Part shown: in pieces, positions 1,019 through 54,856 of the stretch
Layout of the letters: each line of letters starts with the position of its first letter
Numbering within the stretch: the stretch's first letter is position 1
Source of the DNA: Bacteroidales bacterium
GTDB lineage: Bacteria; Bacteroidota; Bacteroidia; Bacteroidales; Marinilabiliaceae
Direction: 5' to 3'
NCBI GenBank assembly: GCA_024401365.1
Contig: JAKSLE010000002.1
Span: forward strand, 124,001-188,000
Length of the DNA: 64,000 bases
Made by a program: the position numbers and the translations under genes
Notes under the pieces: generated by a model
Database searches by the model: none
Told to the model about the DNA's origin: nothing
The model's input: the letters and a program-made list of their open reading frames with translations, nothing else

Positions 1019-3241
<2,223 letters not shown>

Positions 3242-3309: not shown

Positions 3310-3319
3310 ATTGTTTATA

Positions 3320-3359
3320 GGTACTTGCTGATATAAGAGAAGTACCTTCTTGCTCGCAG
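3320..3359. repeat. Intergenic palindromic repeat, unit A
   Basis: A 40-bp unit holding a 7-bp inverted repeat (GGTACTT, 13-nt loop, AAGTACC) followed by TTCTTGCTCGCAG and seven T. A second unit starts 55 bp later. Its end, TTGCTCGCAG plus a T tract, recurs at 20.8 kb and 46.15 kb. Confidence 0.85.
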
Positions 3360-3374
3360 TTTTTTTATTTAATG

Positions 3375-3413
3375 AGTACTTGCTGATACAATAGAAGTAC
3401 CTTCTTGCTCGCA
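3375..3413. repeat. Intergenic palindromic repeat, unit B
   Basis: Near copy of the unit at 3320-3359, differing mostly in the hairpin loop and the first base. It contains GTACTT / AAGTAC arms and CTTCTTGCTCGCA, and is followed by A7 instead of the T tract. It ends 40 bp before the -7 element of the phosphatase gene. Confidence 0.85.
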
Positions 3414-3452
3414 AAAAAATAGAATAGCGTTGTGATTTAACGAGCAAATAAT

Positions 3453-7642: not shown

Positions 7643-8533
7643 ATGAAAAACATTTTACTTATCATCACTATAATCTGTCTTATCAGTTGTAAGGCGCAAG
7701 TAAACAAACCTACTACCGAGGAATACGAATACTCGGGAGATCGTACCTACATGCGTGAAGACAGTTTGAAGATTAGTCAGTTGCTGTATCAAGCCAGCAT
7801 CAAGGGAGACTATAGAGAGCATATAGAGAGCCTAGTGTTTGCTCGCAGTTTTTTAGATATTCCATACGTGGGACACACCCTTGAAGTGAACGACGAAGAG
7901 AAGTTGGTCATCAATACAAGAGAACTCGACTGTACTACATTTATGGAAAATGTGGTAGCACTGACTCTGTGCGACAAGGCTGGCAGATATACATTTGACG
8001 ACTTCTGCTATTATCTGCAAAAAATAAGATACGGCGAAGGAGACACTGTGGCATACTGGAACAGAAACCACTATTTCTTTGGTTGGATGGCCGAAAATGA
8101 AAAGAAAGGCATAGTAGAGAGGATAACCGACGAAGCGTATCATACAGCAAAGATGGAAGCCGATATCGACTTTATGAGTACACACGTGGGCAACTACAAG
8201 ATGCTGGATGCACATAAAGAATGGGTACCACAGATTGCTGATATGGAAAAAATGGTCACAGGCCTGCGATATACATATATTCCCAAGGGCAAAATCGACA
8301 ACTCTGCAGAACTGAGAGCGCTAATACACAACGGGGACATACTAGGACTAACCACCGAGATAAAAGGACTAGACACTCAGCACGTAGGCATTGCTGTTTG
8401 GAAAGAAGATGGACTACACCTGATGAACGCCTCACTACTACATAAAAAAGTAGTATTAGAAGAGAAACTACTATACGACTATCTGCAAGGACAAAAGAGA
8501 ATGACCGGCATGATAGTGGGAAGAATAAAATAA
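7643..8533 (+). CDS. DUF1460 lipoprotein (N-acetylmuramoyl-L-alanine amidase-like)
   Basis: Probable cell-wall amidase of the NlpC/P60-like DUF1460 family. The lipobox LISC places Cys at residue 16, so it should be a lipoprotein facing the periplasm. Family motifs: ARSFLDIPYVGHTLE, the catalytic Cys in RELDCTTFMENVVAL, the catalytic His in DTQHVGIAVW, and NASLLHKKVVLEE near the end. 296 residues is a normal length. Seventeen bases of its coding sequence (7839-7855) exactly match the core of the repeat found at 20.8 kb and 46.15 kb, but they encode the conserved ARSFL motif, so the protein does not look disrupted. Confidence 0.88.
   Translation: MKNILLIITIICLISCKAQVNKPTTEEYEYSGDRTYMREDSLKISQLLYQASIKGDYREHIESLVFARSFLDIPYVGHTLEVNDEEKLVINTRELDCTTFMENVVALTLCDKAGRYTFDDFCYYLQKIRYGEGDTVAYWNRNHYFFGWMAENEKKGIVERITDEAYHTAKMEADIDFMSTHVGNYKMLDAHKEWVPQIADMEKMVTGLRYTYIPKGKIDNSAELRALIHNGDILGLTTEIKGLDTQHVGIAVWKEDGLHLMNASLLHKKVVLEEKLLYDYLQGQKRMTGMIVGRIK
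7839..7855 (-). repeat. 17-bp match to the CTGCGAGCAA repeat core, inside a gene
   Basis: Exact 17-base identity (TTGCTCGCAGTTTTTTA on plus) with the reverse complement of the copy at 20.8 kb. The match stops at both ends and codes for a conserved motif, so shared descent is uncertain. Confidence 0.4.
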
Positions 8534-20808: not shown

Positions 20809-20838
20809 TTAATAAAAAACTGCGAGCAACCCGTATGC
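20809..20838 (+). repeat. CTGCGAGCAA repeat, intergenic copy
   Basis: 30-bp unit containing an A6 tract, CTGCGAGCAAC and GTATGC. It is nearly identical (one A and two bases differ) to 46148-46178 inside hrpB. It runs directly into an 11-bp-periodic array. Confidence 0.8.
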
Positions 20839-20868
20839 TCTATATAAGCAGTATATAGACAGCATATA
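20836..20868. repeat. 11-bp periodic array, class CTATATA (three units)
   Basis: Three consecutive 11-bp units ending in TATATA: 20836-20846, 20847-20857 and 20858-20868. Same period and related consensus as the arrays at 23.9, 29.7 and 54.7 kb. Confidence 0.7.
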
Positions 20869-28508: not shown

Positions 28509-29072
28509 TCAGAGCAGAATAGACAGTACTACTCCCAATAATCCTCCAAGAAATGTCAATGTTATGGCTCCTAGCTTGGTAAAACGTATCAGCAGATATA
28601 TAAAAACTGCGATGAACAAGGAGATATAGTTGACATTCCCTTCTGATAGCGACGACCACGAGAGACTGGAATCTATCATAATCGCCGTCTGTACCATAAA
28701 CGCAAATGCAGACGCCATAAGCCCCACCGTAGCTGGCTTTATGCCAAATAGTATCGCTTGAACTACTTTATTATGCTTAAACTTTTCTAAAAACATAAGC
28801 GCAAGCATAATAAGCGAAAATGATGGCAAAGAAACAGCAAAGGTCGCTACTATAGCCCCCAGCATCCCGTATGTCCTGTATCCTACATAGGTAGCAGCAT
28901 TTATGGCTATCGGTCCAGGTGTCACTTGCGATAGGGCAACTAAATTCGAAAAGTCATCGGCTGTCATCAACCCAAACGCTTGTACGTCTTGGTATATCAT
29001 CGGTAGAATGGCGTAACCTCCACCAAAACCTAATAGGCCAACTTTGAAGAATATCAGAAATAGCGTCAACAT
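28509..29072 (-). CDS. Chromate transporter-family subunit (second half)
   Basis: 187-residue half-size CHR protein with about five or six membrane helices. Family signatures: FFKVGLLGFGGGYAILPMI at the N terminus and LSQVTPGPIAINAATYVGYRTYG. Paired short-chain CHR proteins act as a heterodimer. Although named for chromate, many have no known substrate and may carry other oxyanions. Its ATG overlaps the stop of the upstream half by one base (TAATG), indicating translational coupling. Confidence 0.92.
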   Translation of the reverse strand: MLTLFLIFFKVGLLGFGGGYAILPMIYQDVQAFGLMTADDFSNLVALSQVTPGPIAINAATYVGYRTYGMLGAIVATFAVSLPSFSLIMLALMFLEKFKHNKVVQAILFGIKPATVGLMASAFAFMVQTAIMIDSSLSWSSLSEGNVNYISLFIAVFIYLLIRFTKLGAITLTFLGGLLGVVLSILL

Positions 29073-29744: not shown

Positions 29745-29777
29745 ACTTCTATATACGCTCTATATAGACACTATATA
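29745..29777. repeat. 11-bp periodic array, class CTATATA (three units)
   Basis: Units 29745-29755, 29756-29766 (CGCTCTATATA) and 29767-29777 (GACACTATATA) each end in CTATATA. It lies about 100 bp upstream of the operon's -7 element. Confidence 0.72.
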
Positions 29778-29867
29778 ACCAAACACTACCCAGAGCCCTC
29801 CAAATTATCATAATATTTTTATCTGCCCAATTTTCACCGCAAAAGTCTACCTCTGCCCACCTCACAT

Positions 29868-45605: not shown

Positions 45606-45636
45606 AAGCCTGTCTCTTGCGAGATGGGCTTTTCTT
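45606..45636 (+). terminator. Terminator of bioD, running into the hrpB promoter
   Basis: 11-bp stem (45606-45616 with 45621-45631, two wobble pairs), TTGC loop, then TTCTT. The hrpB -7 element starts 6 nt after the stem. Confidence 0.85.
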
Positions 45637-45637
45637 G

Positions 45638-45645
45638 TATCTTTG
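45638..45645 (+). promoter_or_regulatory. -7 element TATCTTTG, predicted leaderless start of hrpB
   Basis: Exact TAnnTTTG ending 4 nt before the ATG. TTG in the terminator loop (45617-45619) could act as part of the -33 box with an 18-nt spacer. Confidence 0.65.
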
Positions 45646-45649
45646 CACT

Positions 45650-48190
45650 ATGTTTCAATTCCCGCAACTCCCAGCTACTGATATAATCGGAGAGGTCAAC
45701 AACGCTCTCCAGTTCAACGATACCATCTTCATTACCGCCCCTCCTGGTGCCGGTAAGAGTACTGTACTCCCCCTCTCTATCCTCGAGGGACTGAATTCCA
45801 ATGGTAAGGTTCTTATGCTGGAACCTCGCCGCTTGGCCGCCCGTGCTATAGCAGAACGTATGGCCGACATAATAGGCGAACCTGTAGGCCAGACCGTCGG
45901 CTATCGCGTGAGGTTCGATAACTGTACGTCAACAAACACTCGCATCGAGGTGCTTACCGAGGGCATTCTTACCCGTATGCTCCAGTCCGACAACGCTCTA
46001 GAGGGCGTAGATGTGGTAATATTCGACGAGTTCCACGAACGTAGCCTCTTCTCTGATGTCGCACTGGCTTTGTGCCGCGAATGCCAACAGATATTGCGCC
46101 CCGACCTGAAAATTGTTATCATGTCTGCGACTATCGACGTGGAGCCGTTAATAAAAAAACTGCGAGCAACAAGTATGCAGCAAGGTACTAGCAAGGGACC
46201 TGAACATATCCAGAGCGAGGGCAGAATGTACAATGTCGAAAGTGTCTATATGGACAACCTCGCCATCGATGATTCGCTCTTGGATACCCAAACCATAGCT
46301 ACTCAGGTCTCCCGAGCCATAGCTATCGCCTTGGACTCTCAGAGTGGCGATATCTTGGCTTTCCTCCCAGGCGAGGCTGAAATACGTCGATGCGAGGAGT
46401 TGCTTTCGTCCTATGCTACCAACGACCCGTCTCTTCACATCTACCCTCTCTACGGCATGCTCTCTATGAGTAAACAGCGACAGGCTATCGCTCCTTCTCG
46501 CTCAGGCGAACGTAAAGTCGTACTGGCTACACCTATAGCCGAGACGTCTATTACCATCGAGGGGGTACGTATAGTGGTGGATAGTGGACTTTGTCGTCAA
46601 CTTAAATATAGCCCGAATAATGGATTGTCTCACCTCGAAACTGTCCGTATATCAATGGATATGGCCAATCAGCGTGCCGGTCGCGCTGGCCGTACTCAGA
46701 GTGGTATATGCTACCGCCTGTGGTCACGCGCTTCGGAGAATACAATGGCTGAGTTCCGCCGACCGGAGATATTGACTGCCGATCTTACCCAACTGGTCCT
46801 CGATGTGGCTTCGTGGGGCGAATCGGATGTCAATTCTTTGCTTTGGCTCGATACTCCCCCTCGCGGAGCCGTAACAAGCGCCAAGGAGCTGCTCTCTATG
46901 CTGGATGCAATAGATGATAAGGGTAATATTACCGACCACGGACGTAGCTTGCAGAAACTCCCATGCCACCCTCGTATTTCCGAAATGATGCTGGCAGCTA
47001 ATAATAACGCCGAACGTGCCTTGGCTGCCGATATAGCAGCTATAGTGGAGGAACGTGACCCTATGAGAAACGAGGAGTCGACGGATATCAATATACGTAT
47101 CGATGCACTACGTCGCCATCGCGCTCATAATGGGACTTCGCCCTCGTGGAACCGCATCGAAAAGATAGCGTCGCAATATCGTAGCCTCCTTAATGTCAAA
47201 GAGCCTGATAATAGCCCTATGGACTCCAATCTTACCGGATATCTCCTAGCGGCAGCTTTCCCCGAGCGTATAGCCGCATCTAACAGGAATCATGGTAATT
47301 TTACTTTGACTAATGGCCATAGCGCACGATTGAAGTTGTCCGATTACTTGTCTCACGAACCTTGGATCGTGGTGGCTAATCTTGACGCAAGGGATAACGA
47401 TGCTCGTATATTCTCGGCTTCTCCTATCAACCCACGCGACCTCGCAGACAGAATCAAGGAGGTGGAGAATATCTCATGGAATAAACAGCAGGGACAATTG
47501 CTGGCTCAGCGCGAAAAACGTCTGGGTTTTATGGTTATCGCTTCTACTCCTATACAAAAGCCCAACGAACAACTCGTGGTCAATGCGTTGCTGAATGCTG
47601 TCTGTAACCTTGGCGAGCAACTTCTAGATCTGTCTAATGATACCTTCTGCCAGTTGCGCGCCCGTATATCGTCTCTGCTTTCTTGGCACCCGGATATGAA
47701 CCTCCCCAATGTTTCTCACGAGGCTTTGCTTGCTAATGCCGATAAATGGCTGGCTCCATACCTCAACGGAGTACGCAATGCTCAGGATTTCGCTAAACTA
47801 AATCTGTGCGAGGCGCTGTATTCATCCCTGGATTATAACGTGCAACAGGATCTCGACCGCCTCGCACCTGCTTCTATCCAGGTACCAAGTGGTAGCAATA
47901 TCCGACTTAAATATCAACTCAATGGTAGCGCCCCCGTATTGGCCGTACGACTCCAGGAGTGCTTCGGCATGACAGAGACTCCTACCGTCGATAATGGTTC
48001 TCAAAAAGTTATGATGCACCTCCTTTCTCCTGGATATAAGCCTATACAGGTAACTCAGGATATGAAGAGCTTCTGGAGCGAGACTTATTTCATCGTCCGC
48101 AAGGAACTGAGAGCTAGATATCCTAAACATGTTTGGCCCGAAAATCCATACGACGAGGAACCTACTCGCCGTACCAAACGAACGAAATAG
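45650..48190 (+). CDS. hrpB: HrpB-type ATP-dependent helicase
   Basis: 846-residue DEAH-box RNA helicase. Walker A TAPPGAGKSTVLPL, motif Ia LEPRRLAARAIAERM, DEFH box (VVIFDEFHERSLFSDVALAL), motif III IVIMSATID, and C-terminal RecA motifs (LATPIAETSITIEGVRIVVDSG, QRAGRAGRTQSGICYRLWS). The family C-terminal domains follow (SHEPWIVVANLDARDNDARI). Just after motif III, about residues 167-183 (IKKLRATSMQQGTSKGP) are encoded by a copy of the CTGCGAGCAA repeat and break the usual short run to SEGRMYNVE. The frame stays open. I start at ATG 45650; the upstream TTG at 45617 lies in the bioD terminator loop. Confidence 0.9.
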   Translation: MFQFPQLPATDIIGEVNNALQFNDTIFITAPPGAGKSTVLPLSILEGLNSNGKVLMLEPRRLAARAIAERMADIIGEPVGQTVGYRVRFDNCTSTNTRIEVLTEGILTRMLQSDNALEGVDVVIFDEFHERSLFSDVALALCRECQQILRPDLKIVIMSATIDVEPLIKKLRATSMQQGTSKGPEHIQSEGRMYNVESVYMDNLAIDDSLLDTQTIATQVSRAIAIALDSQSGDILAFLPGEAEIRRCEELLSSYATNDPSLHIYPLYGMLSMSKQRQAIAPSRSGERKVVLATPIAETSITIEGVRIVVDSGLCRQLKYSPNNGLSHLETVRISMDMANQRAGRAGRTQSGICYRLWSRASENTMAEFRRPEILTADLTQLVLDVASWGESDVNSLLWLDTPPRGAVTSAKELLSMLDAIDDKGNITDHGRSLQKLPCHPRISEMMLAANNNAERALAADIAAIVEERDPMRNEESTDINIRIDALRRHRAHNGTSPSWNRIEKIASQYRSLLNVKEPDNSPMDSNLTGYLLAAAFPERIAASNRNHGNFTLTNGHSARLKLSDYLSHEPWIVVANLDARDNDARIFSASPINPRDLADRIKEVENISWNKQQGQLLAQREKRLGFMVIASTPIQKPNEQLVVNALLNAVCNLGEQLLDLSNDTFCQLRARISSLLSWHPDMNLPNVSHEALLANADKWLAPYLNGVRNAQDFAKLNLCEALYSSLDYNVQQDLDRLAPASIQVPSGSNIRLKYQLNGSAPVLAVRLQECFGMTETPTVDNGSQKVMMHLLSPGYKPIQVTQDMKSFWSETYFIVRKELRARYPKHVWPENPYDEEPTRRTKRTK
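46148..46196 (+). repeat. CTGCGAGCAA repeat copy inside the hrpB coding sequence
   Basis: Positions 46148-46178 match the intergenic copy at 20809-20838 in all but two substitutions and one extra A. The following bases (GGTACTAGC, then GGGACC) resemble the hairpin arms of the units at 3.3 kb; from AAC to GGACC the unit is 41 bp against 40 bp there. It adds codons in frame. Confidence 0.75.
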
Positions 48191-54559: not shown

Positions 54560-54703
54560 TCTTCCTTTGCTCTTACAACACCCTATAAATAAAACCATAT
54601 ACAGCAACAAAACAAACGGCATAGATTCAAAACGATTTCCGCAACTCACCCAACAGCCTAAAATCTTTGCATAAAACAATCTTTAGATTCCCCTCATATA
54701 ACA

Positions 54704-54758
54704 CTCTCTTAACACTCGCTTAATACACGCTTAATACAGGCTTAACACAGCGCCTTAC
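54704..54758. repeat. 11-bp periodic array, class CTCGCTTAATA (five units)
   Basis: Units at 54704, 54715 (CTCGCTTAATA), 54726 (CACGCTTAATA), 54737 (CAGGCTTAACA) and 54748 (decayed). The unit at 54715 is identical to the one at 23950. Confidence 0.8.
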
Positions 54759-54856
54759 TACATGCCTAACATTTTATTCAGTTTATCTAAACTGATACCC
54801 ATTACTATAGACAACTATTCACCATGTCCGTTGTCTAGGTCACTATCCCATCAAAC

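Follow-up and report, generated by a model that had tools for sequence, protein, structure and literature searches.

The hrpB gene of this Bacteroidales genome contains, in frame, a sequence that also lies between genes, and the question is whether it entered the gene as a repeat or is present there for another reason. The window analysed is a stretch of 64,000 nucleotides (G000:C12:124001-188000) from the source assembly, G000, which has 3.05 Mb in 76 contigs and is 87% complete. The initial annotation had matched a 30-bp unit at 20809-20838 to a second copy at 46148-46178, and this was found again as described: relative to the first, the second copy has an additional A and differs at two bases of the shared part, and it is in frame in hrpB. 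The reading frame encodes 857 amino acids, and the start is likely the ATG at 45650. The features of the site are as follows.

45617..48190, plus strand: hrpB, ATP-dependent helicase HrpB (ORF, translation, TIGR01970 match of 931 bits, PF08482, 6eud at 5e-176)
46154..46169, plus strand: 16-mer core AAAAAACTGCGAGCAA of the hrpB copy; it codes for (I)KKLRA(T), at residues whose homologue in non-carriers is STKLSA
46170..46202, plus strand: three 11-bp units, CAAGTATGCAG, CAAGGTACTAG and CAAGGGACCTG, 3' of the core
46175..46207, plus strand: 33 nt (MQQGTSKGPEH) beyond relatives with a spacing of 16; the placement of the gap is uncertain by a few codons

Firstly, the distance between SATID and GR in HrpB was compared with that in relatives. 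An hrpB match was present in 60 genomes, loci being drawn solely from the best matches (30). The spacing is 27 residues in G000; among 47 relatives it is 16 in 40, 17 in five, 27 in G013 and unreadable in one, G010 having been excluded because of an N gap in its hrpB at the site. The proposed check by alignment therefore gave a clean in-frame length gap in 45 of the 46 readable relatives, and the exception, G013, is itself a carrier of the repeat. The size of the addition had been put at 12-17 codons, which is too large; the net figure is 11 codons (33 nt, ie 3 x 11) against the 40 relatives and 10 against the five. The idea that the repeat is added sequence holds for the 33 nt after the core, but not for the core, since IKKLRA sits on native residues (STKLSA and similar, KKLRA aligning to, for example, TKLSA). 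The 11-bp period is seen at the G013 site too, and at the same position G010 has another core variant, AAGAAATTTACGATGAACAAGGG, followed by 11-bp units. For G008 only a weak match, and no HrpB orthologue, was obtained. The hrpB genes of G000 and G013 are 71.1% identical and their longest identical run, 25 nt, spans the core; taken alone, such a run of identical codons is not unusual (permutation 0.35). The N gaps in the G010 assembly coincide with the array in hrpB (L061 832) and with that in an amidase-like gene (L179), which might reflect longer or polymorphic arrays in that genome.

That the repeat goes far beyond chance is borne out by its copy number. Allowing one mismatch, G000 has 159 copies of AAAAAACTGCGAGCAA (97 exact and 62 with a single mismatch), 82 on the forward strand and 77 on the reverse. 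This amounts to about one per 19 kb, and the reversed control gave none. The family is dispersed, with copies both between and inside genes, and the frame is kept. In addition to the hrpB site, the window contains the following.

20814..20862, plus strand: intergenic copy between convergent genes, core at 20814-20829 and three units
3316..3420, minus strand: intergenic tandem pair 55 bp apart, with units; exact core at 3350-3365, degenerate core TTGCGAGCAA at 3405-3414
7783..7854, minus strand: copy inside an amidase-like gene (PF07313; ORF 7643-8533, plus strand), core at 7839-7854, units at 7783-7838
28601..28616, plus strand: candidate core TAAAAACTGCGATGAA, degenerate and genic (within ORF 28509-29072, antisense), one mismatch from variant AAAAAACTGCGATGAA
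23905..23987, plus strand: coreless 11-bp array, intergenic
29747..29802, plus strand: coreless 11-bp array, intergenic
54670..54763, plus strand: coreless 11-bp array, intergenic

The minus-strand copy at 7839-7854 is the second exact core within a gene of the window, and its site has variant cores in G013 and G008. The sequence after the hrpB copy had been likened to hairpin units at 3320-3413. That likeness was confirmed (24 nt, 96% complementary), although its basis is the core plus 11-bp units. Elsewhere in G000, a coreless array at C1 59204 is kept between G000 and G013 and differs by one 11-bp unit.

The anatomy of the element was determined from an alignment of 110 of the 159 G000 copies, ie those within the stretches examined. 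A short A/T tract precedes the core, and degenerate 11-bp units, some three to five of them, come after it, the information fading by about unit 5. Within each unit it peaks at positions 9-11: in unit 1, T and C each reach 93% at positions 10-11, and in unit 2, A reaches 83% and G 71%. Positions 5-6 favour TA, and the remaining positions are variable. The register is strict, as 40 of 41 tandem core spacings in the stretches examined are multiples of 11 (44, 55, 66, 77 and 88 bp), the other being 89 bp. Carrier sequence of 203 kb contains 11 arrays with a lag of 11 (four in the window, seven in 100 kb of G013, none in 39 kb of G010), and 296 kb from non-carriers contains two; at other lags there are 0-3 arrays per set. 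Identical 11-mers are shared among loci far more often than in column shuffles (60 pairs in unit 1; shuffle mean 1.6, maximum 6), so that the units are not independent; their recurrence is due to common descent or step preferences. Four G010 copies (L145, L153, L155 and L156) have 88-bp (8 x 11) modules rich in CTAG, a form not noticed among the G000 copies compared.

Complementary arms (score at least 12) were found, after tandem copies had been dropped, in 0 of 91 copies from G000, 1 of 22 from G013, 1 of 16 from G010 and 0 of 7 from G008, with 0-1.7% in shuffles; these scores rule out a palindrome or hairpin as the general form. Terminal inverted repeats are likewise not general, but two G013 copies, L138 and L139, end in an inverted variant core. 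Of the 110 G000 copies, 92 are intergenic, spread over four intergenic contexts (26, 24, 21 and 21); 13 lie inside ORFs and five at locus edges. Given the absence of a preferred gene context, a promoter, terminator or 3'-UTR role was rejected.

The element is confined to few genomes. Among 119 genomes (own included), only G000, G008 (54), G010 (56) and G013 (115) are rich in the first core, with 0-3 matches in every other genome; the eleven non-carrier genomes of the genus have one match in total at up to one mismatch. A second core, ATTACGATGAACAA, is found at the same threshold 175 times in G013, 62 in G010, 49 in G008 and 14 in G000, with 0-4 matches in each of the other eleven genus genomes and 0-5 for reversed controls. 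Intermediates between the two cores exist, which leads to a general core, AAAAAA-YT-R-CGA-(GC or TG)-AAC. In the stretches examined, 102 of 114 G000 cores are CTGCGAGC, and G013 is mixed (23 CTGCGAGC, 16 TTACGATG and 16 others; n=55), a mix biased by the partial selection of stretches with the first core. Exact matches to the general 17-mer number 104 in G000, 206 in G013 (in about 3.3 Mb), 71 in G008 and 24 in G010; the only further hit among the 71 genomes of the family (own included) is a single match. In 393 genomes sampled from the order (own included), there were nine single matches besides G000. A wide distribution is thus rejected: among the genomes searched, the family is abundant solely in four genomes of one genus. 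Carriage by viruses was also rejected, as no match to a 21-mer was found in viral_contigs. Neither the repeat nor any uptake sequence in Bacteroidota is described among the literature matches listed, which cover few subscription journals.

The copies inside genes bear most directly on how the hrpB site arose. Thirteen of the 110 G000 copies lie within ORFs of at least 110 aa, and seven are confirmed as genic: those in HrpB, FeoB, GluQRS, PolA, a ModF-like ATPase, the AmiA-like protein (PF07313) of the amidase-like gene, and L070, a protein with matches in 13 of the 15 genus genomes and no family assignment. HrpB, FeoB, GluQRS, PolA and the ModF-like protein were identified by NCBIfam, the ModF-like match being below its cut-off. 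In PolA, the core and three units are present in G000, G008 and G013, and the residues are changed in place, without a gap in the 25 residues compared across 13 genus genomes (own included). There is also no gap at the core in GluQRS or the AmiA-like protein, where it falls on aligned, substituted residues; G009 is shorter by three residues beside the AmiA-like core and by two upstream in GluQRS, and in the GluQRS unit region the non-carriers other than G009 are shorter by about four. Compared with non-carriers, FeoB is longer by about 14 residues and L070 by about 12, though where the gaps fall is uncertain. The FeoB loop is highly variable; in G008 and G010 it lacks some 48 residues.

Accidental matching of coding sequence to an intergenic repeat, coupled with an ordinary change of loop length, was considered. 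Native codons are partly core-like even in non-carriers, with three mismatches in the amidase-like gene of G009 and in PolA of G004. Six coding sites (HrpB, FeoB, GluQRS, PolA, the amidase-like gene and L070) were compared for a near core, defined as at most two mismatches to a variant. It is present in 10 of 14 orthologues from other carriers, in 0 of 44 from non-carriers and in 0 of 1500 random 60-nt windows. It is missing, with 6-7 mismatches, from FeoB in G008 and G010, PolA in G010 and the amidase-like gene in G010 (beside an N gap). No FeoB was detected in G013, and no L070 in either G013 or G010. This retention, and the single first-core match in all eleven non-carrier genus genomes against seven confirmed genic copies among 110 in G000, refute coincidence, to which we attach almost no weight.

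One GluQRS site has a different core in each of the four carriers: AAAAAACTGCGAGCAA in G000, AAAAATTTGCGAGCAA in G010, AAAAATTTGCGATGAA in G008 and AAAAAATTGCGATGAA in G013. The retention of orthologous coding sites with other core variants is not what a one-off tolerated insertion predicts. The initial annotation had drawn a parallel to Rickettsia palindromic elements, ie an insert that enters genes in frame. The length gap in HrpB and the intact frame fit it, but the palindrome is not general, the hrpB core is homologous sequence with only 33 nt extra, and most copies are not in genes at all. The analogy fails because the cores of PolA, GluQRS and the amidase-like gene lie on aligned residues, with no core insertion, and because one coding site has different core variants across carriers. 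These gap tests largely refute an insert of that kind, which we regard as highly improbable.

Other observations point to mobility. The G013 copies L138 and L139 have about 100 bp in common, from the core to the inverted variant core, within unrelated flanks, and differ by one 11-bp unit. At G013 C1:249239-249602 there is an apparent 82-bp insert between AGGCTA repeats, a motif that is single in G000; this is one case, and loss between repeats would look identical. Spacers of G000 and G013 in contigs C1 and in parts of C12 were compared wherever the two agree in gene order and only one of the species has an element or array. The differences are +123, +82, +125 and +302 bp, and -157 bp for a case with an array only; spacers bearing the element are longer in four of five comparisons (one-sided Mann-Whitney p = 0.049, against 15 controls, all of them spacers of 100 bp or longer, ranging from -116 to +257). 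Elements are also associated with synteny breakpoints, which is suggestive only, as it is confounded by spacer length. From the G000 side, breaks fall in 6 of 11 spacers with an element and 5 of 100 without (6 of 11 against 5 of 33 for spacers of at least 60 bp, p = 0.016), and from the G013 side in 4 of 11 against 3 of 34 (p = 0.05; for spacers of at least 100 bp, p = 0.2). Breaks against G013 and G010 at elements or arrays are at G000 C1 79920, 89424, 198415 and 216189 and at window positions 3240 and 54552; other breaks lie elsewhere.

These data would suit a modular mobile repeat of the BrickBuilt or BOX sort, a leader plus minisatellite that copies itself mainly between genes, grows or shrinks by 11-bp units and undergoes short gene conversion, the genic copies being tolerated insertions or conversions. 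Besides the duplicate, the insert and the longer spacers, it is favoured by the non-independent units, by the strong depletion of copies in genes and by the extra residues in hrpB, FeoB and L070. It does not readily account for cores on aligned residues without a gap in PolA, GluQRS and the amidase-like gene, for core variants that differ between orthologous coding sites, for the periodic conserved positions, or for the lack of general terminal inverted repeats. We consider this explanation a serious one, although it falls somewhat short of an even chance. A RAYT-driven REP was rejected, as a Y1_Tnp match is present in one of the four carriers and four of the eleven non-carriers (one of the latter below cut-off) and so does not track the carriers.

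The reading we prefer, at a probability of roughly 50%, is that the hrpB copy belongs to a genome-wide set of sites for a lineage-specific, helically phased DNA signal that is read by a protein, these sites being largely made and kept in place. A register with variable filling, the absence of gene context, the limitation to one clade, the origin of the PolA site by substitution and the variants at orthologous sites together favour it, and copies in genes such as hrpB resemble a recognition signal that is being maintained more than they do a plain insertion of a repeat. A putative DNA-binding protein would read the near-invariant core, AAAAAA YTRCGA GC/TG AA, and the following units of one helical turn (11 bp), which would place TA steps and a CTC, CAG or YAC trinucleotide on one face of the helix. 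Sites would arise and persist mostly in place, by substitution, exchange or short conversion, with whole 11-bp units gained or lost. At hrpB three units would have been gained, and since 3 x 11 = 33 the frame was kept. The duplicated and inserted copies bring the mobile modular repeat close in weight to the signal, and both may be true, with duplication seeding copies that are then kept as sites. No partner protein for the element was found. The likeliest single role for such a signal, though a tentative one, is the recognition of self-DNA during uptake, or in a comparable process of DNA exchange: a core plus several one-turn units, with variant cores swapping in place at coding sites and reshaping HrpB, PolA and GluQRS. 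Slightly less probable still would be a different reader, such as a protein organising the nucleoid or the chromosome.

Variant cores in related species, as seen for the element, are reportedly also described in a study on dialects of DUS, the uptake signal of Neisseriaceae. The available text on DUS and on USS of Pasteurellaceae (PMC1626085) reveals further similarities: a short core of strong consensus in large excess on both strands, perfect copies outnumbering those with a single mismatch (here 97 and 62), AT-rich segments 3' of the core at about one-turn spacing (here the 11-bp units with TA in the middle), and a preference for non-coding DNA with some genic copies. In the uptake signals, genic copies arise by substitution; of the element's genic copies, those in PolA, GluQRS and the AmiA-like protein have no gap at the core, and those in hrpB, FeoB and L070 come with extra residues. 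The same text applies a gap test, notes single-turn spacing and likens the strength of the consensus to that of young transposons. It gives a density near one per kb for uptake signals, however, and 65% genic copies for that of H. influenzae (PMC1626085). The element is roughly 10-20 times sparser, its phased segments number more than two, its tandem copies keep an 11-bp register, its genic share is far smaller, and some of its copies appear duplicated or inserted. Its density is below the norm for USS and DUS and its role in uptake is putative, so it is not classed with them. Within Bacteroidota, a preference for own DNA in uptake is reported for Riemerella columbina, in the accessible part of that account (PMC7965970).

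The BrickBuilt MITE of Porphyromonas gingivalis, of the same order, resembles the element in having a leader and tandem units, variation in unit number, dispersed copies and narrow hosts. As far as its description is accessible (PMC4596501), it has a 23-nt unit, a leader and tail with small inverted ends, and 19 strictly intergenic copies; the element has an 11-bp unit, inverted ends that are not general and more than 100 copies, some of them genic. Rickettsia palindromic elements also lie in frame within unrelated genes, but in the available portion of the source (PMC10969869) they are palindromic, about 150 bp long and inserted with their coded peptide, whereas the element is non-palindromic and often on homologous residues. 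REP/RAYT systems are similarly dispersed in more than 100 copies and differ in their palindrome and in the tracking of Y1_Tnp.

If the element is a recognition signal, Bacteroidota would join the few lineages with genome-wide DNA watermarks, the multi-turn site could be used to fish out its reader protein, and some protein residues, such as a cysteine in PolA and the 11 extra residues in HrpB, would be set for DNA reasons. If it is a mobile repeat, its growth unit would be exactly one helical turn, with the frame kept in threes.

In the polA region (L084 on G000 C23, L138 on G013 C3 and L160 on G008 C132), G000 matches G013 at 95.9% identity across 2236 bp, and it matches G008 at 95.0% across 2280 bp. 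The other matches listed of at least 300 bp, a list that lies outside the window's own matches, reach at most 85.7%. The likeness of polA suggests interspecies exchange between carriers, with assembly contamination as an alternative. An 11-bp array similar to CTCTCGCTTTC is present in the non-carrier G006 (L216, near 1407), and on this evidence the units may predate the core.
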